A stretch of 64,000 bases of DNA from Apiotrichum sp. Y4204 (Eukaryota > Basidiomycota > Tremellomycetes > Trichosporonales > Trichosporonaceae), in the NCBI GenBank assembly GCA_025531455.1, contig JAMYHL010000065.1:62001-126000 (forward strand), in the 5' to 3' direction. Numbering within the stretch: position 1 is the first letter of the stretch; every line of letters starts with the position of its first letter. The position numbers were made by a program, and so were the translations under genes. The notes under the pieces were generated by a model. It searched no databases, was not told the DNA's origin, and saw only the letters and a program-made list of their open reading frames with translations. Positions 5,526-39,800 of the stretch are shown here, one piece after another.

Positions 5526-8500
5526 CTAGTCATCCTCCTCCTGGTGATATCCAGCACGGCGCATCTCGCCGAGCCGCCTCCGTGCGGCGCCGAGGTCCTT
5601 CTCAAGACGGAGGATCTCAACCTGCTGCTCCATCTCGCGCACCTTGAACTCGTGCGTCGGCATGGCCTTGTAGTCGACGCTCTCCTCGTCGGTCGACTGG
5701 TTTGAAATGATCTTAACCTGCCGCACGAGCGCCTTGCACGCGTCGGTGACGGCCTTGGCCGCGAGCTCGAGGTTGTGCTGCGCCTTGGACGTCAACGATG
5801 CCTTGATGCGCGACGCGGCGACGAGCTGTGCAGTCGCGGCAGCGACCTCGTTCGACGCAACGATCAGCTGCTCAAACGAGTGCGTGCCCGAGATGACGCC
5901 GTCGGCGGCCTCGATCAGCAGGCTAGTGCCGTACGCGACGGCCTTGGCGGCGGAGATGAGACCCTCGGTCCAGCGGTGGTTCTTCTTGTAGAAGTGAGCT
6001 GTCGAGGACGTGCCCTTGCCTTCGCGCACAATCTCCTCCTGCGACGCCGTCGCAGCCTGGATAAGGCGCCCAATCGCGTTGGTGATCGCCAGCGCCGCGT
6101 TGAGAATTGCATCGTGCACGTGGCCCTCGAGGACGTCAAACTTGGACTTGGGCCGCGCCTGGAGCGCCTGCAGACGCTGTGTTGCTTCGGAAATCGCCCT
6201 GGCGGCCTCCTCCATCTCGTTGGTGACAATGTCGCCGAGGTCGCCGTTGACCTGCGTGAGCGAGGACTGGGTCTTCGGGAGCAGCGCCTCAACGACTGCG
6301 GAGAGCTTGCCGAGCTGGTTGCGCGTCTCGGCATTGTTGCGCAGCGCAACGTCCTGCTTGTTCCCACCAGCAGTGAGCTTGTACGACTGGAGGTTGAGGA
6401 AGAAGCGCTGCACGACGTCACCTGCAGACTTGGCAACCGACACGAGCTTCTCCGAGCCGTCGTCGCCGTCGGCGAAGCGCGTAATGCCCTTGCTGGCAAA
6501 CAGCGTGTCCGAAATGCTCTGCGCAAACTCGTTGGCCGCCTTGATGACGTCCACGTAGCCGCCGCCGCTCTTGCGCTCGAGGTAGAGGTTGAATGTGGAT
6601 GCAAACTCGGTCGCGTTGGCCATCGCCTTCTCGATCATGGACAGAGTGTACTGCGGCGTAGCCGTCGTGTTGCCGCTCTGCATCGGAGCCTCGAGCTCGT
6701 AAATTGCGTCGTCGACCTTTTGGACACACGCCTGGAGAATCGAGTCGATAATCGAGTTGAGCTCCTTGCGGTGGTCGAGGATGAGCGTGTCGACCTGGGC
6801 GTCGAAAGTACCGGTGGTCTCGTTGCTGGTGAGACGCAGGTCGTCGAGCTCCTTGATGGTCTGGTCCATGCCGACCTGCATGATAGCGAGCTCCTGCTCC
6901 TTCTCGTCCATGACACGCGCAATCTCGCCCTCCTTGGCGTCGAGCTTGGAGAGCAGCTCGTCGATCTGCATCTGCTTGGCCTGTGATGTTAGTATAGGAG
7001 ATTCACATTGGCGGCTAAGACCCGATCATCTGACTCACCCGCAAAGAGTCCTCCACCTCGGTGAGCTGGCGGTTGTACTTTGTCATGATGCCCGAGACCT
7101 CGCTCGACTTGTGGCGCGAGGCGTCCTCGGCGCGCTCGTTGGCGAACGCGAGGTCGCGCTTGAGGCGGTCAATCTCCTCCTTGTGCGAGCTCTTAACGCG
7201 GTCAATGTCGTAGCGCGCGCGGTCGCGGTCGCGGATCATGTCGGCAAGCTCGAGGTTCTTGGTCTTGACGTCGCGCTCCATGCGCTCCATCTTGTCAATC
7301 GCCTCCTGCGCCGAGTTGGCCTTGAGCTGGAAGCCCTTGGACTTGTTGAGCAGGTCGAGGTGCTCAGAACGGAGCTGCGAGTAGAGCTTGGCGAGCGCCT
7401 CGTACTTGTTCTTCCACATCTCAACCTGGCGCTGGAGCTGCTGAATCAGGTCGTCCTTGCCACTCAGCTGCTGCCCGACGTTGGCGCCAACCATGGCGAG
7501 CTCAGTCTCGAGCGACTTGACGCGACGGTCGTACTGCTCGAGCATCATCTGGTCACGCTCGTACTGGTTGCGCATGCCGAGCATCTCCTGCTGGAGCTGC
7601 AGCACCTCGCCGGCATTGTTCTGCTGCTGCCACTGCGCGTTCATCTGGTCGCGCATCAGCTGTTCCTGCGCCTGACGCGCGCGCTCCTCCTGCTGGCGCT
7701 GCAGCTCGGCAAACTCGGCGTCCTGCCGGGCCTTCTCCTCCTGCTGGCGCTTCTGCTCGTTCTCGCGGGCAGCAACGAGCGCAGCCTGTTTGCGCTCATA
7801 CTCCTCCAGCATGCGGCGCTGCTCCTCAATCTCCTTCTGGGTGGCCGCGGGTGAGTCGGAGCGGGGTATGGCGGGCGTGGCGGTTTCCTTGCGCTGAACG
7901 GCGGGGGCGGGGCGGGCGGGGAGATCGGGCGCATCGTGCCCGTGATCCAGAAGGTTGGGCGGCTCCTGTCCCAGCTTGGGCACATTAATGAGGCCGGTGA
8001 GATATTTCAGATTCGAGCACTCGTAGTAGAAGCGGCGAAGGTTGTAGTGCTGCGAGTTGTATCGCTCGCGGAGGGGCTGAAGGGCGTCCGCGGCGTCGGT
8101 GCGGCGGAACATTGCGCGCATCATCGACGTAATGAACTTGTAGATACCAAACGACTCTTTGACAAGGGGCACGAGGGCGGAGATGCGGCACTCGTTGTTG
8201 TTTGACCCACGGAAATGTGCAAAGATGAGTTTCTGGAAGCTGTCAATCTGGTCCTGGAGCGCCATGAGGTCGGTAATCGTCTCGTAGCCCTCGTTAGGGT
8301 CGTCAATGTTCTTGAGCGAAATGTACTCCTCGTACTCGAACAGACCGTTGAACTCGGGGTGGTGGCGATGGAAGCGGAGCTTGGCGAGCAGGAACGCTGT
8401 GTACGAGCGGATAAGGGCGCCATATCCCTTGACGCCCTCGCCTCCTACAGTTCGGCCACACGTCTCGAGCCATCCAACCTGTCCGTGGGCTTCTTTGAGG

Positions 8501-13326: not shown

Positions 13327-13988
13327 GGTGTCTATGCTCTAGGTGAGCCGGAACTGTGAGAATAGAAGAATGGGATGGGGTTGAAGTCACAATAACAAGC
13401 GACGTCGCGCCTACTGTGCGGTGCGCAATCTGGCGTTCGCTGCACCCGGTGGTGCCAATCTGTCCCAGAGAACAGTGACGACACCGGGGTTTGCTTCCGT
13501 GGGCTGGGTGGAGGTCGGTGAGGAGGTTGCTTTGGTGACCAGAAGGACACTGTCAGAGTGTCGGGGGGCAGAATAAGAAACAGGGTGGGGAAGAATGATG
13601 AAGACAGTAAAACAGAATTAAAGAGCAGCAGCAAAGAGGAAAGAGGAACGGTGACGAGCGTGAAGCAAACGACGTCAACGATGCGCACGGTGGTGACACC
13701 AAAACGATCAATCGCGCCTGGGGGGCTTTTATAGCGGGGACATAGTTGGGTATCTCGGATCTTTCCTTTCGCTATAGCACAGTGGATTATAACTAATAAA
13801 ATAAAACCTTTGCAGCCTTTACAAGAAATGAACCACCGATGTTTCGAATCCCTCACAGACTTTTACTCAACCTCCACTTTCCCACTCCGGTTTTATCACA
13901 GAGCAGCTTCCTTTCCTTTCCTTTTCTGGATCTCCGCCACTCAAATCATCGACATTTCTGGATTTCCACAACTTTCATCACCACCACA
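13327..13988. promoter_or_regulatory. Divergent intergenic region between hydrolase-like gene and COA8-like gene
   Basis: 662 bp, no gene. A/T-rich part at 13590-13810 with long purine runs; CTTTTATAGCG near 13728. A pyrimidine/ACA-rich leader lies directly before the 13989 ATG. Confidence 0.3.
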
Positions 13989-27752: not shown

Positions 27753-28351
27753 TTCATGTACAGTATTTATGTATCCATATCGCGGCACCTGTGGGGTGGG
27801 TATGGGTATTCGGGAAGGGGAACGAGTAACAGCTGGATCTGTGTCGCTCATCACCGTCGCCGCCGCCGAGCATTTAACAGAGACCGCCGTGTCGGGCGAC
27901 CCCTCGCCGATACTAGAGGCTGCGAATTCATTTCAGAAGCGCAAAAGCGGTGGGTCCTTGTTTGGAGTGTGGAGAATTGGAAGGTGCAGGGCGGATGCCT
28001 GCTAGGCTTATAAAAACCTGGGGCTTGAGCGTTGTGGTCGTGATTGACAGCCAAGGCAAGTCCTCCAACTGCGATGCCCGCCGATAATCTCACGACGCTG
28101 GACTACACTGGAGCACAATAGTCTATCAGGCCGGATGTGATGTTTAATAGACTGATGTTCACGTCCTTATCTGGAACGTACATCGTCTTCCTTCTCATCT
28201 GTCCTTTGACGTGCTTGCCGTTCTTCACATGCAGGAGGTCACCCATATCACTGAGGAACCACTCCTGGTTCTTACCCCAAAACTCTGTCCGCACTCGCCG
28301 TCGCATATGAGCTGGCTGATACCGCATGTCGAAATGTGATTGAGAACCGGA

Positions 28352-28371
28352 GGGGGGGGGGGGGGGGGGGG
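28352..28371 (+). repeat. Poly-G tract of 20
   Basis: Uninterrupted run of 20 G on the plus strand. Long G homopolymers can form quadruplexes and are prone to length change and to assembly error. Confidence 0.9.
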
Positions 28372-28692
28372 CAAAGGGGAGGTTTAGCAGTGTCTGCTGG
28401 GGAACTGTTCCTCCTGCCGCCCGGGTCTGCAGCCGTATCCGAGTGTCGGAGAGTGCTACGAGTGAGGTGCTTGCAAAAGTGGAGACATTTCACGTTGAGT
28501 TGGTTGCCTTGCAAGAGGGCTGTCAATCCGGTTGTTGACGTTGTCGAGACGCCCAAGAGTCCCTTGCAAGTGAAGTGGAGATCGAACAAAGTAAACCCAC
28601 CTTGTCCCCGGAGCCTGCCGGCCGTTGCCGCAGGCTGCATACCGGTACAGAACGATTCGGCGTCGCCTTGTCAACAACAGAAAAAGGGGGTT

Positions 28693-28870
28693 AGTAGTAA
28701 CCGGTAGGCGCCGTCCGTACCAGATCTCAGTGCTATGAAGCCAAGACCATCAACTGTCGAGCACTGGCTCATCACAACAAGAGAGTGAGAATTACACATG
28801 CGGTAGTAGTAAGCGGCCGACGCAGTTGCGGACCAGATCTCAGTGCTGTGAAACCGAGCCCACTATCTCA
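28693..28870 (+). repeat. Diverged tandem duplication, 112-bp period
   Basis: AGTAGTAA..CGG......ACCAGATCTCAGTGCT.TGAA.CC.AG occurs at 28693 and again at 28805. Identity is roughly 75-80 percent over about 60 bp by eye. Confidence 0.7.
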
Positions 28871-29389
28871 TCGCGCGGTGCGATAAGGTTTGTCTGATCT
28901 CGACACTCCACAGCATACAAGACGTCATCGGCACCGCTGTGCTCTCGGTCCGCGTTTCAGCTGATCGCAACGGCCCAAGAAGAATAGCGCCCTTTCTACT
29001 TCTAGATCTTGGTACGTAGGTGGTGCTATTTCTGATGGATCTCGGCAGGCAGATTGGGGTCCGTTAGGTCTGAAACGCCCGGGGAGTGACCGACGATAAC
29101 AGATCCAAAGGCGCTGGAGTCTGTTCATATGTTGATGCAGTGAGCACTGCTTCGAGAGGCAGTGAACTTGACGTTTAACTCCAAGTGGTGGGGGGATCTC
29201 TGCCGCCGGGATGCTATCTTGCATGGGAAAAGGACGTTCCCGAGTTTCATCATGTCACTGATGGAGGAGTGGGGCTTCGGCTCGTATCGAGCCCAGCATC
29301 GCTTTCTTACCTGCATTCTCGCAGTACACCGCTCGCCGCCCTGCGATGAGTCCATGCGGACCAGTTATGCAGGTGGACGGTTCAGCGCA

Positions 29390-29567
29390 GTGGAGTGGGA
29401 AAACGGTTCAGTTGCACTCTATCTGCTCCGGTTCGGGTTCTCATAGTCAACAGGCAGCCATGACGTCTCCTCCCTGTAGTCATCTCGGAGACTGGGAGAT
29501 CCATCCAGTTGCACCTTATTTGCCCTGCATCGAGATCCCACAGTCGACCGACAGCCGTGACGTAGCG
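29390..29567 (+). repeat. Diverged tandem duplication, about 97-bp period
   Basis: The segment from about 29390 (GTGGAGTGGGAAAACGG, CAGTTGCACTCTAT, CATAGTCAACAGGCAGCC, ATGACGT) recurs from about 29487 (GGAGACTGGGAGATCC, CAGTTGCACCTTAT, CACAGTCGACCGACAGCC, GTGACGT). About 70-75 percent identical by eye. Confidence 0.7.
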
Positions 29568-29951
29568 GCCCTCGCGGTTTGGATGGGATGATGAGGCAGT
29601 AGGCGCTAGTTCATCGTTCCCACCCACATCGTAAGGTCAGCTCGGGAGGAGCTATGCGCAGTGCTACAGGATGCTGTCGTGGCCGACGCGTTCGTGAAGA
29701 TTTGAGGATAGTCATCCAGTCAGCCATGCTGTTTGAGAAACAGTATGGTCGCCGATAAGATAGCAACTCGGGGACTAGATTGCCGAATTCACTCGTTTCG
29801 GATGTCCTCCGTCCATAAGTCACTCCCTCTGGAGGGACACGCTACTTCCCTGGAAGCTGTCCACTGGCTCACAGACTACTGCATAGCCGAAGCACAGGCT
29901 TACACCGGTGCCTGCTGTGGATGGCAATGCCTTTGCAGCGCATGGCGATGC

Positions 29952-30005
29952 TACAGTTTAGTTGTCCGATACAGTTCAGTTGTCCGATACAGTTTAGTGA
30001 CCCGT
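29952..30005 (+). repeat. 18-bp tandem repeat, about three units
   Basis: Units start at 29952, 29970 and 29988: TACAGTTTAGTTGTCCGA, TACAGTTCAGTTGTCCGA, then a decayed TACAGTTTAGTGACCCGT. Lies about 70 bp before the first TIR element. Confidence 0.85.
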
Positions 30006-30075
30006 TAGAGTTTGAGTTACCCAATGCAGTGTGCTCGTCTCATCTTCACCGCTATGTTTAGATCAATGTACAATA

Positions 30076-30302
30076 CAGCAGTCAACAAAAAGTCTCCGCG
30101 ATAGAGATCGGGGTAGTGGAGTCCTTTCCCACACCGTGAGGAAGGCTTTCCCCATGCATCTTCCACCTAGTCACAGTTGTTCGGAGGCCGTTCTTTGGTA
30201 AGGAAGTCGGCTCGAAGCGTCGCTTTGCGGTGCAGTATGCATGCACAGGAGCTGCGAAAGCAACAGACAGGACGACTGCGAGAACGCTTTCGGTAACCAC
30301 TG
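30076..30302 (+). mobile_element. MITE-like TIR element, copy 1 (227 bp)
   Basis: The left end reads CAGCAGTCAACAAAAAGTC. The right end, read from the other strand, is CAGTGGTTACCGAAAGCG. Both match the termini of copies 2 and 3. The left end is preceded by TA. Internal sequence aligns with copy 2 along its whole length, including AGTTG(T/C)TC(G/A)GAGGC and GTGCAGT(A/G)TGCAT(G/A)CACAGGA. No coding capacity. Lies 56 bp upstream of the TATA box of the secreted-protein gene, in the same orientation as copy 2. Confidence 0.7.
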
Positions 30303-30358
30303 TGGAAGCACCACAAGATCGAGAGTGGAGTATTGCGAGTTTCGAGCGTCTGATATGG

Positions 30359-30366
30359 TATAAATA
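30359..30366 (+). promoter_or_regulatory. TATA box of the small secreted protein gene
   Basis: TATAAATA, followed by a CAA/CTC-rich leader. A 5'-UTR intron is likely: GTACGT at 30471, acceptor GGCGCAG ending at 30559, with a CTAG-containing branch region. That places the ATG 44 nt into the second leader exon. Confidence 0.6.
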
Positions 30367-30603
30367 AGACGGACCCCAGGACCGTCATCAGCATCAAGCA
30401 GCCTTCTCCGACAACAACAACATCCCCTCTACGAACAACCCTCTCACTTCACTGCACGAAGACCTTACACGTACGTTCCCCCATATCCTCTTCCCCTTCC
30501 CCCCCCCGCCCAAACCGCCCTTCCGTGTTGCCCCCCTCCCCCAAACGAACTAGGCGCAGGATTGGATACTCACCCAAGCAGCTATCGCACAACACCAACC
30601 AGC

Positions 30604-30939
30604 ATGAAGTTCTCGATCGTTGCCCTCGCTTCGCTCCTCGCCACCCTTTCCGGTACCGCCATGGCTGCGCCCGCCGGCGCTGAAGGCGGCATGGCGGGAA
30701 AGCTTGAGGCCCGCGGTGTCCCCTTCACCGGCCTTGAGACGTGCAAAAACGGCAACGGCGTATGGTGCTACTCCGAGTGCCGCGATGCGACGCACACCGG
30801 CTACTCCATCCAGTTCTCGTGTGACTGGGGAGACAGGTACGACATCTGGAACGAGGGCGGAGGTGTCTTCAAGGTCGGTGGCGATGGCCGTCGCCTTGGC
30901 ACCTGCCAGAAGGACGGCAACCGCTACAAGTGCTGGTAG
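30604..30939 (+). CDS. Small secreted cysteine-rich protein
   Basis: 111 aa, no intron in the coding part. A classic signal peptide (MKFSIVALASLLATLSGTAMA) is followed by a short propeptide ending in KLEAR, a likely Kex2-type processing site. The mature part begins GVPFTGLETCKNGNG. It has six cysteines (TCK, WCYSEC, FSCDW, GTCQK, YKCW) and ends KCW, suggesting three disulphides. I do not recognise the family. The size, signal, processing site and even number of Cys fit fungal secreted effectors or antimicrobial-type peptides; function is not shown. A TATA box and a probable 5'-UTR intron lie upstream. The gene is bracketed by two direct copies of the TIR element (30076-30302 and 31329-31541). 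Confidence 0.85.
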   Translation: MKFSIVALASLLATLSGTAMAAPAGAEGGMAGKLEARGVPFTGLETCKNGNGVWCYSECRDATHTGYSIQFSCDWGDRYDIWNEGGGVFKVGGDGRRLGTCQKDGNRYKCW

Positions 30940-32152
30940 TGGCTTTCAAATTAGCAGAGTATTTTGTTAAAGAAGCTTCGTGATGAATCCCTTCTTTAGT
31001 CGTACTTGATCGGAAACCGAGCGTCCCCTGCCAATTGATACAGACTGTGCTTCGGCTTGATAATCTTCTGGCAGCGTCTACGACTCCGCCCACGGGAAGC
31101 GAGTTTGCCCTGCCCCCATGTCGCGCAGTCTAAGAGCGCCCCAAGATTGAGTGAGGTTATGAGACCAGGGAATTGGGTTCTTCATTGGTTGCATTACCCT
31201 TGCCAGTGTAGACGTTCAGCTTTGAGGGTGGTTGGTGTAGGGGAGCGCTATTTTCATAACAGCACAGAAAGTGCTTCGGCCAATGTGGCCGCTCAGCGTC
31301 GGAGGATGATTAGTACAGTACATTGGGTCAGTAGTCACCAAAAGTCTTTACGCCATTGAGATCGTTCTGCAGTGAGGATGCTTTCCCACATCCATGTACT
31401 GTACAACTTGGTTACAGTTGCTCAGAGGCTCATCTTGTGAGGAGACGGGCTCCAAATGACACCCTGCTGTGCAGTGTGCATACACAGGATGTTCAAAAGG
31501 TACCGAGAAGACAACCGCGTATAGTCATTTGGTGTCTGCTGTACGATGTGTAAGGGTGATGAGCGAAGAATGAAGCTTATCTATGGAGATAAACGAGTGT
31601 AATGATGAAGGGTACGAGCGACGGCGCGGTTGAGCGAACAAGTACGGCAGAAGCTGACGGTCTTTCAACACTTATCCGCGCAGGCAAGAAGTCGCACCAT
31701 CCTCTTCACATCCGACCTGGCCGGCGTGGACGTCTAACCCTTGAGATGCTTATGCTGAAAGACAGTCAGCTTCCGCCGTACTCGTTCGCTCGCTCGTGCA
31801 GTTGCTCGCACCGTTTACTATCACACTCGTTTATCTCTATATATAAGCTTCCTTCTTCGCTCGTCACCCTTTATGTGTCGTACTATAACCGTCGTTCGAC
31901 AGTTTAGTAGACTAGAGTGTCAGTTCCTTAGCAGTACAACAAGTTCCTAGAGTGAGAGACACGGCGAGTCTTCAGCTCCCACGGCCATCGGACATCAGCT
32001 TCGAGCGGTTTAGCGTGCTTGTATGGTGAGCTGGAACGCATGCAAAGACATAAACCCGCCACGAGCTCATGTCAGTGTCCGTTGTACCTCCCTTTCTGGG
32101 TACTTTGACGCCGCGCTACGCCAAGCGGCCAGGCACATCATCCATCCTCCAC
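30940..32152. other. Gene-poor island, between secreted gene and GNAT
   Basis: 1.2 kb without a supported gene. Holds copy 2 of the TIR element (31329-31541). The rest shows no coding-like codon use and no recognisable repeat. Confidence 0.45.
31329..31541 (+). mobile_element. MITE-like TIR element, copy 2 (213 bp)
   Basis: The left terminus is CAGTAGTCACCAAAAGTC then TTTACGCC. The right terminus, read from the other strand, is CAGCAGACACCAAATGAC then TATACGCG, an imperfect inverted repeat of about 26 bp. TA follows the right end. The 45 bp after the left terminus match the inverted copy 3 very closely (TCTTTACGC.ATTGA, CGTTCT.CAGTGAGG). No coding capacity. Confidence 0.75.
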
Positions 32153-33345: not shown

Positions 33346-34523
33346 AGATGTTATCCATACAGTAGTCCTCCCCCCCTCACCGCGCTGCTCACTGAGGCCA
33401 CCCAGCTGGTGACGCCCCCAAGACCATGGATACTTGCTCTCTGACGCCCCCAAGACTCTGTGACAGCGATGCTGGTGTGCTCCTCGCCACCGACGCTCTC
33501 CTCGCCACCACCATGTCTGCACTTGCCACCACCGATGCTCTGCTTGTTAATAGTTGATGTATCGCTCACTGTTGACATAGCCTTTCGTAAACAGGGATGC
33601 GATCTTCTTTTGTCGTCGCGCAAGAGCTGTGGGAGTTTGCTGCCTGCTCCAGCACAAGCTACGGTACCGAGGCCATATACTCTTGCACGAACTAATGCAA
33701 CACTGCAGCCAACTGTAGCATTGTTGCAGTGACGAGCAGAGCCCTTTAAACGGCATGCACAGGAGGTGAACGGTGGTGGTTCTGACGATCATATGAACGC
33801 GACAGTCATCTCGGCGCCCAAGTCGCCAGCCAAATACAAAGTACAGTCATCCGCAGACAATTTGCCTTGTTCTAGTGGCAGACCACCATCAGTAACGGCG
33901 GCCAACTAATTTCTCTAGCGGCAGCGCTCAAGTACTGCGGGCCACGCGCGCTCCTAGACGAAGTTGAGTACATGAGCGATAGGGAAAGTAAATACTGCTA
34001 AACTGCTGTTTATATAGTTTATATAGTAGCTAGAGTGGCAGAGTCGCTACGGTGGGAATGGCCAAGCTGCACGGGCGAAGCTGTACATAAAGTGCCGTCA
34101 GATGGAATCTGTGGCTGACAAATGTGGCACGCAGTTAACCCAAGAACATACTTCTTCAAGGTTAGCATAGTTTGGCACCCGATTACTTGCCACACATCCA
34201 GTTGTGCACCAATGCTTACTAAGCTTGGTAAGCATCTATTCTTAATGGTTGACTACATGCTCACCAAGTTTGAGCATGATCAGTTCGGGATTGATCAAAT
34301 GGGAGCAAAGCGCGTTTGCCGTGTTAACGGAAAACATCTCCGGGTTAACGGCCGTTGCGACTTCGACTCTCCTTGCGGAGCATGTGGACATATGAACAAC
34401 GCGACTTAACAATGGCGTGGCGTCTCGCACCTGCTTGTTCTGTGCGAGTATATCTGGGACACTTTGTCATTCTTCCATTCACCCATTACCCACACTTTCA
34501 TTACTCAATTTCTTCGTACCACC
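33346..34523. other. Gene-poor island, upstream of the tandem pair
   Basis: 1.2 kb, A/T-rich with no supported gene. TTTATATAG occurs twice in tandem near 34009-34026. Two similar hairpin-forming units lie at 34213-34234 (TGCTTAC/GTAAGCA) and 34256-34278 (CATGCTCA/TGAGCATG). A GTTAACGG word occurs twice shortly after. The open frame at 34122-34409 spans these hairpins and lacks a recognisable domain. Confidence 0.4.
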
Positions 34524-35198
34524 ATGGCTCCTCAGCCCCCATCGTCTCCCCTAACCCGGTCGGTCACGCCCGTAGCAAAGGTTGCTCTAGCCATCGGTGC
34601 GCAAGCGATGTCGGGCTCAAAGGGGCCACTCTACATGTGAGTGCCTGAGTGTGCTAGTGGGCAGAGTGCTGATGGTAGCGCCCAACCAAACTGCACGCAT
34701 TGCGAGACAGGCCGACCCTGTGTTCTGGTTATGGAATCAGCTGATTCGACTGAGGTCGACATTGTTGGGTGCGCGAGGTGCCGAACGGATAACCTTGCTT
34801 GCAATCTCGCCGCCAAGTATAAGGTCAATGGCGGAAATGTTACCAAGGTCGAGCCCGAGGCCTTGAAGGTAAGCCTCCGTGATGTCCTCATGACCTGACG
34901 TGCAGCGCACAGCTCCCCCACGGCGTCCGGGTCCAGGGGTCCGGGCGGCAGGCCCCCCAAGAGGCCCCGCCTGGAGACGATCCAGGACACAAACACAAAG
35001 CTCGGCCAATTCCTTCAAGACCGGATTGTCGAGATCGAGGCGGACATGGACGGGCAACGCGCCGAACGCAAGCAGCTCGTGGCTTTGCAAGAACAGCTGC
35101 AGGCGGCTGTGGCCAGCAGGGATGAGGCAATCGCGTCTCTGCAGAAGCGCCTCGCTTCCGCCAAAGAAGACCTCGCGGCGATACAACGCCCGCTCTAG
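34524..35198 (+). pseudogene. Cys6 zinc-cluster-like / coiled-coil protein, tandem copy A, frameshifted in exon 3
   Basis: Exons 34524-34636, 34679-34868 and 34906-35198 mirror copy B exactly. Exon 1 encodes a Pro/Ser-rich lead (MAPQPPSSPLTRSVTPVAKV). Exon 2 encodes the cysteine module C-x2-C-x5-C-x16-C-x2-C-x6-C (CTHCETGRPC, GCARCRTDNLAC). Exon 3, in the frame homologous to B, encodes a basic linker SRGPGGRPPKRPR and a coiled coil (AVASRDEAIASLQKRLASAK) ending at TAG 35196-35198. Exon 3 is 293 nt, one base short: near 34913 the A copy lacks a base present in B, so the spliced frame does not reach the coiled coil. It is either a decaying copy, a sequence error, or a gene using another C-terminus. 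A conserved 52-nt intron-like segment follows at 35203-35254. Confidence 0.6.
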
Positions 35199-35318
35199 CG
35201 CGGTGAGTGTTTTGATCTGCGAAAGCCTGAAATGTCGTTCTGACCGCACCTTAGCATTACGGCGACCGAGACACCTACCACACCCCCCTCTGTACATATC
35301 CGTGTAGACTAGTGGAGA

Positions 35319-36000
35319 ATGTGGCACCCTCCGCCCTCCCCCATCACCAGGTTGGTCACCCCGTTGAGGAGGGTGGTGAAGGAGGTTGGAGCTCGCTCCG
35401 TCGTCGGGCTCAAGAGCACCGTTTACCTGTGAGTGCATGGGTGTGCTAGTGGGCAGAGTGCTGATGGTAGGGCCTCAACACCTTGCGAAGGTTGTGGCAA
35501 GACGCGGGCGTGTGTGCTGGATATGGTGGCGTTGACGCCGAACGAGGTCAAGCTTCGCGGCTGCTATAAGTGCAAGGGTGAACAACGTCCTTGCGACCTC
35601 GCCGCCACCTACCACATCGTAACCTCCGTCGTCAAGCAAGGGGAGCCCGCAACCCTGGAGGTAAGCCTCCGTGATGTCCTCATGACCTGACGTGCAGCGC
35701 ACGGCGTCCCCCGTGGCTTCAGGTTCGAGGGGCCCGGGCGGCAGGCCGCCGAAAAGGCCCCGCGTGGAGATCGTGCAGGACGGCGACGCGGGCTTGCGCG
35801 CGTCCCCTGAGGACCGCGTCGGCGAGATGGAGACACAGCTGGGCGGGTGGCAGCTACAGCGCAGCCAGATCAAGGCGGGGATGGAGCAGCTCCAGGCGAC
35901 GATGGAGCAGCTCCAGGCCACCCTGAGCACTGCAGATGCGGCCATCGCCGCGCTGCAGGAACGTCTAACCTCGGCCAACAAGGAGCTCGCCGAACAGTAG
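35319..36000 (+). CDS. Cys6 zinc-cluster-like / coiled-coil protein, tandem copy B (intact)
   Basis: Exons 35319-35428, 35471-35660 and 35698-36000, introns 42 and 37 nt, giving 200 aa. Exon 1 encodes MWHPPPSPITRLVTPLRRVV. Exon 2 carries C-x2-C-x5-C-x16-C-x2-C-x6-C (PCEGCGKTRAC, GCYKCKGEQRPC), which resembles the Zn2Cys6 binuclear cluster with a longer middle loop. Exon 3 has a basic linker SRGPGGRPPKRPRVEIV and a heptad-like coiled coil (KAGMEQLQATMEQLQ, AALQERLTSANKELAEQ). Zinc cluster, basic linker, coiled coil is the layout of GAL4-type DNA-binding proteins. DNA binding is inferred, and no activation domain is seen. Only 120 bp separate it from the end of copy A. A 52-nt intron-like segment (36022-36073) lies just after the stop. 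Confidence 0.7.
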
Positions 36001-36231
36001 CCCCCGACGCCAGCAAGCCACGTGAGTGTTTTGATCTGCGAAAGCCTAAAATGTCGTTCTGACCGCACCTTAGCATTCCCGGAACACCGTGATACACATC
36101 CCGTCCGTCTTAAGTATTTGTGTAGAATAGTATAGAGGAAGAAAGAGACACCCTCCCGAGCACAATTTTCTCCTTTTGGCTTTTGTATACGCGCCACTTC
36201 CAGTATGTATTGTTGCTGTTATAGGCCTTGA

Positions 36232-36783
36232 GTGTGGGGCTTAAGACAGAATGAGATTTGGAGGTGCAAGAATCGGTGTCTCCAGTGGTGGCGACGCGTT
36301 TCTCGCATAAATGTTAAACAGGTACAGTTTCCGGCCATTATTAAAATGGCCCTTCTGGTCGAAAGGTTGCCCGCCGTCACTGTAATCGCCGAATTTTGCA
36401 TCCTGTTATCTCATCAACTTCAGTCCTTTGCCCCATGTTTCTTTGCAGCATCTTTCAATAGTATGTCAAGACCTATAGCAGAGGCAGTCGCATGCATGCA
36501 GCTGCCCACAGGTGAAAGTTACATGGAAATATTTGCTGTTCTGCCTGATGGAGAGGGTGCCACTTTCCCTACTGATGGGACATACTTTCGCATTTTTGGC
36601 CATTTTTTACCCACTCTGCAACACTTTTCTCTCCAGATATTCCTTATGCATCGCGATGCACATGCTATGCATATAGATTTTCTAAGGGTTCATCCCCTGC
36701 GCTTCAACATGTCGGACTGGGAAACTACTGGAGCCCCATGTGAGGAGTTACAGTGGTTCAAAATTGGACGTCAGCGCCGGTAA
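36232..36783 (+). pseudogene. Possible decayed OB-fold (RPA2-like) gene fragment
   Basis: Open frame with lower G+C than neighbouring genes. The segment DGTYFRIFGHFLPTLQHFSLQ followed by IFLMHRDAHAMHIDFLRVHP resembles the end of the replication protein A 32-kDa OB fold, which has a TYVxVxGxL...SLxAFxI...H pattern. An upstream RINVKQV recalls the VxIKQ lead of that fold. The middle does not read as a clean OB fold, and intron-like signals (CAACTTCAG, CTTTGCAG) interrupt it. May be a remnant, a highly diverged gene, or chance. Confidence 0.25.
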
Positions 36784-36855
36784 AGTGGCCTTTGGGGCGC
36801 GTTTGGGTCACTAATATCGGCCGCATACTGTATAGGCTGCATACTGGTACAGATT

Positions 36856-39800
36856 CTACTTGCACAAACTGCGAGCCTCTTCCTCGACCTCGGCAGGGTG
36901 CACGAACACACGTAATGGGATGTCAGAGGGCAGGGCAGCACGCGCGGCGGCGACGCGCGTGCCCCACGTCGCGGCGAGGCGGATGAGCCGCTCCTGGGCG
37001 TCCGTGAGGGTCTGCAACTCCGCGACAGTCGCGTTCTCTTCGGCTTCGTGGTCCGAAGAGGAGGCGGATGAGGATGAGGACGATGAAGATGAAGACGAGG
37101 AGCTCCGTGGGCGTGTAGTCTTCATTTCCACATCAACCTCCGCTTTCACCTCAACCTTTGCCCGCTTCGTCTTTTTCGCTCCTCGCTCCCGGCCGCCCCT
37201 CCGGGTTTTGCTGTCGCCCTTGCCCTTACCCTCGACGTTGCCTTTGCCCTTGCCTTCCCCTTTGCCCTCCCCTTTGCCCTCCCCTTTGCCCTCCCCTTTG
37301 CCCTCGCCCTCGGCCTCGGCCTCACAGTTTTCCCCATCGTCGCCAGGGTACCCGCCGGGCATGCTCCGCCCAGCTTGCGGATCAGGCTTCGGCACCGGAA
37401 TCTCCGCGCCGCCAGTAACGTCGCGGATGAAGATACCCGCGACCTGCCCCGGATGCTGGAGCGCCATGAGAGTGTACACCTCGAGGTCCTCTTCGCCGCT
37501 ATCCCCGAAGAGCAGGAACCGGGAGCGGGGGAAGGCGTGGAACACCTCGTCCAGTCCAGGTCGTTTGCGCGCGCCCGCGCCCTCGTACAGCGCCGCAAGC
37601 AGCGCGCGTGGCCCGTAGTATTTGAGCTGCCGTTAGAGAAGTAACAGTTACTGCAGTCCCCGAAAGCCTTTACGCGGTCATTTCAGCCGTCCCGCTGGCA
37701 CCTTCTGTGCATGTATACAGCACATCAGAGCACATTTGGAGCTGTCTGTCCCACCAGAGAATCTTCGAGACCATAGATTCTTCGATGTTTTTTTTTAGCA
37801 CGGGAGGAACCCATGTTTCTGGCAGGAGGAACCATGTTCCTCTCTGCACGAGGGCAACGAGGAAACTGCCAAAGCGGAGCGAAGAAGCTGCAGCTGTAAT
37901 AGAGCGGTACCTGCGTGAGGAACCGCTCCCTCACTGTAGAACGCTTTCAATCGCGTAAAGACTTTCGGTGACTACCTTAAGACTCACAGTGAGGGAGCAG
38001 GCAGGGAAGGCGTGCGAGTGCAGGAAAGAGAGGAGTGCGGGGAGCAGCTCAATCGGCGAGAGGGACTGCTGTCAGCTCTGAATTCGTGAGTTTCTCAGTT
38101 CTCACCACAAAGTGAAGTCCGCAAACTCCAGCGGCCGCGAGACTTCTGAACAGCTGCTCCATCCCGGGCACACCAATCTCGCGGTCGGGGCGGCAGAACA
38201 CGTTCCTGATATGAGCATTACACTGGCGACAGAACCCACCGGAACACTTCGCGCGCGCCTCCCAGGATATCGCTGCGCTTGACCGTGTCATCCTGTCGTC
38301 AGAGCAGTCTAACTGCCAACCCACCACATCCGAAATGATCCGCACGCCGTCCTCCCGCGCAGGCGTGTACGTGAGACGGCTCTCTGCGACGTACTCTTCC
38401 GGCGGCTCCTCCTCTGGCGGCGGCGTTGGCGCCGAGTGCTCAGCCACTTTGGAATCCTTGTCGGTGCGCGTAGCCTTGCCCTTGATTCCCAGCTTTGCAA
38501 GCATCGAGCGAGTTGAAGAGGTTTCGTTCTCGACGGCTTCACCCGCCTTACCCGCCACGTCGTCCTCGTCCTCGTCGTCCGCGTCCTTGGGCGGTTCCTT
38601 CTCCGTAGTCTGGTCCGTATTCCTTTCTGTGTGCTTGCCATGCTCTGAGGCCGCATCTGCGGTCGACTCTGTGGCCACCTTGACGTCCTTGTCGGTGCGG
38701 GTCGCCTTGCCTTTAATGCCAAGCTTGGCGAGCACTGAGCGCGTCGATGAGGTTCCTTTCTCCACGACAGCGGCCGCTTCATCGGCCGTATCATCGTCGT
38801 CGTTGACGCTGTCGTCCGCGTCCATGGACGCAACCTTCTCCGTTGCCTGGTCGGGATTCTGGTCTGTACGGTGACCCTGTTCTGCCTTGTCCGGAGTTGT
38901 CTCGGTGGTCGTCTTGTTCACTACATCCTTCTCTTCGCTCTTGTCGCTGTCTCTCGCATCCTCCTTGTCCTTCTTCTCCGGCTTGCCAGTCTCCTTCGCC
39001 TTCCCCTTGTCCTCCTTGCTCTTCTTCTCCTTGCTCTTCTTCTCCTTCTCCTTCTTCTCCCTTTCTTTCTTCTCTTTCTCCTTCTTCTCCTTTTCTTTCT
39101 TCTCTTTCTCCTTCTTCTTAGGCGGAAGCTTGACAAGCCGCGCACGCACACGCACCGAGTATCCACGCGCATTCTCCGCCATTTCGGGACAGTGCTTCTG
39201 GACCGCGTCCCAGGGAACCACCACTTCAGTGCCAAGCAGGCCGTTCGAGTCGGTGGTGAGGTGTGTGCTGGCGAGAATCTCCCCCTCCCAGTTATCCTTG
39301 ACCGCATACACATCAACACGTACGCGGCGCGAACCCAGGGCACCGGCCCAGAACGGCCGGAGCCGCGCAGCGAGGAGGCGGCGCGCGGCACGCGCGTCGA
39401 ACAGCGGAGCCGGCGCGTGCAGTGCGTGCGCGTTCGTGGTCGACTCGGGGTGATGCGCCGCGTCCAGGATGCGCTCGGCGCTTTCCTTGCCCGTGTCTGC
39501 CATGTCGGATGTACTGTTGCCCCTCTCTGGTGCTAGGGTCGGGAGGTCCGCGAAGCCTGGGATCAGCATAAGTATTTAGCAGCGCAACCTACGCTGGGCA
39601 ATGCCCACGAGCGCCCGCTGCGTGTGCGTCGCGCCCTTGAGGGATCGCAGGTCGGTGGCACACCCGGCGACGCTGACGGCGATGTCAAACGCCTTGGGAT
39701 CATCGTCATGTGGGCGGAGGAGGGCCCAGCGGGGTATGAGCCAGACCTCGTCGTCATGCGTCACGCCCTCGGGTTCTGGCTCCTCCCCTTTCGGCTCCTT

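Follow-up and report, generated by a model that had tools for sequence, protein, structure and literature searches.

In this study, we found that two tandem genes of Apiotrichum sp. Y4204, gene A (34524-35254) and gene B (35319-36073), share three short predicted introns that are nearly identical, whereas their exons have diverged strongly. A genome search with gene A as the query found a third copy, C, with the same introns on contig C126. Coordinates refer to the window, that is, the whole 64-kb stretch of DNA that was analysed, and the comparisons cover one genome, three copies and two haplotypes. The explanation that we tentatively favour, although we put it just short of an even chance, is that A and B are tandem paralogues of old age and that selection holds their introns at the level of the nucleotides, probably because of a role in splicing or in the control of expression.

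The two genes have a common exon/intron layout, as follows.

34524..34636, + strand: gene A exon 1 (113 nt), the first 31 nt the same as in copy C
34637..34678, + strand: gene A predicted intron 1 (42 nt), differing at 2 positions from B and at 1 from C
34679..34868, + strand: gene A exon 2 (190 nt), Cys6 segment
34869..34905, + strand: gene A predicted intron 2 (37 nt), without differences among the three copies
34906..35202, + strand: gene A exon 3, coiled-coil frame open, stop ending at 35198, not in the frame of exon 2 if spliced as proposed
35203..35254, + strand: gene A predicted intron 3 (52 nt), differing at 1 position from B and at 3 from C
35255..35318, + strand: A 3'UTR and A-B spacer (64 nt), adjoining intron 3, yet diverged from B and C
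35319..35428, + strand: gene B exon 1 (110 nt)
35429..35470, + strand: gene B predicted intron 1 (42 nt)
35471..35660, + strand: gene B exon 2 (190 nt), Cys6 segment
35661..35697, + strand: gene B predicted intron 2 (37 nt)
35698..36021, + strand: gene B exon 3, with the basic patch and the coiled coil, which continue the frame of exon 2; stop ending at 36000
36022..36073, + strand: gene B predicted intron 3 (52 nt), 3' of the stop

The third predicted intron lies 3' of the stop codon of the coiled-coil frame in all three copies. Exons 1 and 2 of A and B join in frame once intron 1 is removed. Exon 1 of C has 112 nt, and the same join in C would require another donor site for the first intron. 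With splicing at the proposed sites, only in B does the frame of the Cys6 exon continue into the coiled coil; in A and C, exon 3 is shifted by one base relative to B, with the coiled-coil frame open over its full length. Such a frame shift in two of the three copies would speak against a strong function of those copies. Bearing on whether the shifts are assembly errors, nine of 11 control ORFs compared with C126 had no insertion and four had neither an insertion nor an uncovered base, the ORF ends not being checked apart. The A-B locus is flanked by a 30-nt inverted repeat with 90% complementarity (33926-33955 and 37598-37627), and two ORFs on the - strand, 36856-37632 and 38049-39575, carry low-complexity repeats of the GEGKGEGK and KEKKEK type.

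The introns also affect the reading frame. When intron 1 is retained, the frame stops at once in A and B, and retention of intron 2 adds nine residues, VSLRDVLMT, followed by a stop, in the same way in A, B and C. Because these stops are in frame, splicing would decide whether a full-length protein is made, and a role of the introns in splicing control is plausible.

As a rule, introns change faster than most other parts of a gene. Here, A and B differ in their introns at 2/42, 0/37 and 1/52 positions (3/131 in all) and in their exons at 53/110, 91/190 and 110/297 positions when the segments are aligned singly, or 56/110, 91/190 and 112/297 in one joint alignment. Exons and 3'UTR together differ at 279/658 positions, and chance does not account for this contrast with the introns (binomial p ~6e-27). 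The sequence-only reading, which had noted near-identical introns within diverged exons, was thus borne out, and its estimate that the ungapped exon-2 proteins keep the six Cys at about one third identity (22 of 64 residues) is in line with the 35% that we obtained over 63 columns.

The three best-scoring conserved segments between A and B are 34867-34977 (intron 2 and 72 nt of exon 3), 35203-35258 (intron 3 and 4 nt) and 34636-34678 (intron 1 and 1 nt). At five of the six edges the level of divergence changes no more than 4 nt from the splice site, the exception being the 3' side of intron 2, where the similarity reaches 72 nt into exon 3. Intron length is constant across A, B and C, while the exons carry indels. 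The intron interiors, for which the first 6 nt and the last 15 nt of each intron were left out, differ at only 3/68 (A-B), 3/68 (A-C) and 2/68 (B-C) positions, compared with 4/11, 8/17 and 8/17 fourfold sites of exon 2 (Fisher p 0.006, 6e-5 and 2e-5). The full introns have also changed less than the nearest noncoding flanks, with 4/131 vs 25/149 for A-C (p 1e-4) and 3/131 vs 21/252 for B-C (p 0.02). Between A and B, the noncoding 3'UTR of A, which starts right beside intron 3, differs at 20/61 positions against 3/131 in the introns (p 7e-9). The 5' flank and the first 31 nt of exon 1 are far less diverged between A and C. It suggests that the introns may be under selection, as they are below their flanks, do not change in length and have abrupt edges at the splice sites.

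On the other hand, the introns are at the ordinary level of haplotype divergence, so they could simply be young and the exons the anomaly. Among 370 control windows of 131 nt, 31% differ by 3.1% or less, and the A-C intron interiors (3/68) are not different from four candidate introns of other genes (p 1.0). These four, kept from six pattern candidates and still candidates only, have 10 differences in 174 aligned sites and 2 gap sites; the overlapping candidates 8254-8335 and 8254-8341, without differences, were dropped because they lie inside an open frame. The three introns showed no unusual RNA fold (z -0.11, -0.80 and 0.96).

The intron sequences were used as probes for further copies, as the sequence-only reading had proposed. 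Searched across the genome with up to three mismatches (intron 1 by a 30-nt part), each intron pattern was found at three places, which are the genes A, B and C. With a 22-nt piece of intron 2, two more places matched with three mismatches, on the homologous contigs C68 and C113, compared with one for its backwards control. A dispersed repeat or introner with the full or long patterns is thus excluded, and the worry that the conserved segments might belong to a repeat outside such genes is answered to that extent. Introner-like elements are likewise near-identical introns; unlike them, each intron here stands at one homologous position in three related genes, with the full pattern not found elsewhere. 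The genome thus holds at least three copies of the gene in searches that scored the best candidates, and a search for further paralogues gave three weak matches (E 0.33-0.62); the one on contig C35, the only one inspected, was judged to be chance.

The position of copy C points to two haplotypes. A 70-kb part of C126 aligns with the window in reverse and colinear order. Identity ranges from 71 to 94% among the aligned pieces, is mostly 92-94%, and reaches 93.6% and 92.4% in the two largest; stretches of the window that do not align include 27784-28758, 33942-34390 and 36328-36830. Therefore C126 is probably the other haplotype of the window, with A and B on one haplotype and C alone on the other. 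Elsewhere in the genome, P450 matches occur mostly as near-equal pairs on different contigs, and C68 and C113 share one 3-kb pair at 95.7% identity. Together with the colinearity of C126, these pairs suggest that the assembly seems to hold both haplotypes or two close subgenomes. The assembly has 48.9 Mb in 182 contigs, which suggests about 24 Mb per haplotype if everything is paired, and a diploid or hybrid basidiomycete with a small genome.

The sequence upstream of C matches that of A, and the sequence downstream matches that of B; gene C itself resembles A in its 5' part and B in its 3' part. Its exons are a patchwork in which some 40-nt stretches are closer to A and others closer to B. 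The stretch with the start codon of B aligns to B's own 3'UTR, and 64 nt separate intron 3 of A from the ATG of B. It may weakly suggest that B came from a tandem duplication that started inside exon 1, and hence lacks the promoter of A. Haplotype divergence peaks at the A-B locus and falls off in the flanks, and seven of the eight most diverged 190-nt windows of the 64 kb fall there. The variable family proposed from the sequence alone gained indirect support for variability at the locus, from these windows and from the unequal gene number of the haplotypes (two and one), but not for a larger family, as only the three copies were found among the best candidates scored.

Other parts of the window also differ between the haplotypes. 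The stretch 27784-31538 is a second one of strong difference, with parts unaligned to C126 and the rest 71-79% identical, and it contains an ORF (30364-30939) that looks like a small secreted Cys protein. At 13491-13870, divergence is locally 18-23%, compared with a background of about 5%.

Judged by their divergence, the exons seem to be several-fold older than the split of the haplotypes, and the introns look young. By Nei-Gojobori counting on the three sequences, with silent sites near saturation, pS/pN was 0.82/0.35 (A-B), 0.54/0.21 (A-C) and 0.68/0.39 (B-C) in exon 1, 0.62/0.43, 0.62/0.26 and 0.54/0.30 in exon 2, and 0.62/0.34, 0.64/0.30 and 0.25/0.16 in the coiled-coil part of exon 3. 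The age follows from pS values of 0.54-0.82 in eight of the nine comparisons, compared with 0.06-0.20 between haplotypes in 11 other ORFs of the window, not all with Pfam support, where 189/2058 fourfold sites differ (9%). In addition, pN is below pS in all nine, so the exons look to be under purifying rather than diversifying selection. The excess of nonsynonymous over synonymous change that marks a family under diversifying selection was not found in any of the nine exon comparisons. Together with the diverged noncoding 3'UTR of A (20/61 vs B), this leads us to reject diversifying selection on the protein as the main cause, which had been one of the two explanations offered from the sequence alone. 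Transitions are scarce among the exon changes (A-C 93:111 vs 1561:923 in the window background, p 2e-6), for which old age, changes of amino acids and replacement of segments are each a possible cause. RIP-like mutation would seem an unlikely source, as the exon changes are not dominated by transitions.

Several explanations compete with constraint on the introns. It is possible, but we consider it unlikely, that the introns keep the true recent time and that the exons were replaced or changed faster, through segment switching or exchange with spliced cDNA; the latter would leave the introns alone. The intron divergence at ordinary haplotype level, the patchwork of C, the few transitions and the diverged 3'UTR of A beside the much less diverged A-C 5' flank and start of exon 1 would all agree with replacement. 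However, pN below pS throughout means that purifying selection has filtered the exons for a long time, searches of the genome that scored the best candidates found no donor, amino-acid change alone can lower the transition share, and the flanks within 150 nt are also above background (25/149), as expected of an old locus. A special form, in which exons and 3'UTR are overwritten by cDNA of the spliced message, taken from copies that are diverged or error-prone, and introns, 5'UTR and flanks stay untouched, seems to us highly improbable. We give a similarly low weight as to exon replacement in general to balancing selection as the force that maintains separate old exon alleles, with introns and flanks made uniform by recombination or gene conversion, in which case a recognition role would be possible. 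The divergence peak with its falling flanks, the two genes against one and the mosaic structure of C fit this explanation, but if exchange could clear a 37-nt intron of differences, nearby silent sites should be cleared as well, and near-saturated silent sites fill exons of 110-190 nt on both sides of intron 1. Moreover, pN is lower than pS, A and C are out of frame in exon 3, and the 3'UTR of A escaped homogenisation. Gene conversion anchored in introns, the other explanation of the sequence-only reading, would need islands of 37-52 nt in far more diverged DNA that end near the splice sites at five of six edges, and nothing in the present data shows the recognition function that it had raised.

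It is also improbable, more so than either exon replacement or balancing selection, that the gene model is wrong and that the conserved segments belong to an antisense gene, a noncoding RNA or a small mobile element. The introns are predictions from the sequence, and in both tandem genes an antisense frame crosses introns 2 and 3 (34737-35474 in A, 35475-36218 in B). But in C the two intron stretches do not lie within one open antisense frame, for which reason we reject antisense coding, and silent positions are conserved too, so that coding alone would be insufficient for the identity. The in-frame join of exons 1 and 2 in A and B, and the occurrence of the full intron patterns in these three genes only, also speak against a wrong model. 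A process that follows the splice sites, either selection on the introns or RNA-based exchange of exons, would be needed, because an exchange cleaning such a short intron would also clean the adjacent silent sites, and without any exchange introns and exons would be of equal age.

Taken together, we suggest that the locus exists as two haplotypes, with old tandem paralogues A and B on one and the single gene C on the other, and that the exons diverged long ago, mostly under purifying selection. Selection on the nucleotides as such would have kept the three short introns almost without change, the most likely reason being that they share signals for splicing or expression control.

The product would be a small protein with a Cys6 segment that is perhaps metal-binding (C-x2-C-x5-C-x16-C-x2-C-x6-C), a basic patch and a coiled coil. 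In these features it resembles the fungal Zn(2)-Cys(6) binuclear cluster (PF00172), from which it differs by its long middle loop and a score below the cut-off. No Pfam family passed the cut-off; PF00172 reached 13 bits in A and 8.4 bits in exon 2 of C against 21 required, and B was not listed. A structure model of exon 2 built from the three sequences (mean pLDDT 66.2) has, with low confidence, a hairpin between the two Cys pairs. It gave no Foldseek match with E <= 0.001, and no solved structure was matched by sequence up to E 10.

Conserved introns with switched exon segments are known in snake venom phospholipase A2 and three-finger toxin genes. The present genes share with them the conserved introns and flanks and the exons diverged even at silent sites, and the similarity of C to A and B is a patchwork; a donor was not found among the best candidates scored in the genome. 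They differ in that pN is smaller than pS in nine of nine comparisons, three copies were found, no secretion signal was noted and the noncoding 3'UTR has diverged too. In MHC genes, balancing selection keeps old exon alleles apart, and the introns of MHC class II genes are homogenised. Old exon variants, young-looking introns and a haplotype-divergent locus are common to both; here, however, the introns have just 37-52 nt with abrupt edges and there is no sign of diversifying selection, in a comparison of two haplotypes.

In this fungus, near-saturated silent sites stand beside frozen introns of 37-52 nt in three copies and two haplotypes. If RNA-based renewal of the exons were true, it would mean that a fungus has a mechanism which generates diversity and respects splice sites, and any rewriting of the exons would point to a process that tells exons from introns in DNA. 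If selection acts on such short introns, as we tentatively prefer, the locus would be a clean case for finding what introns encode.
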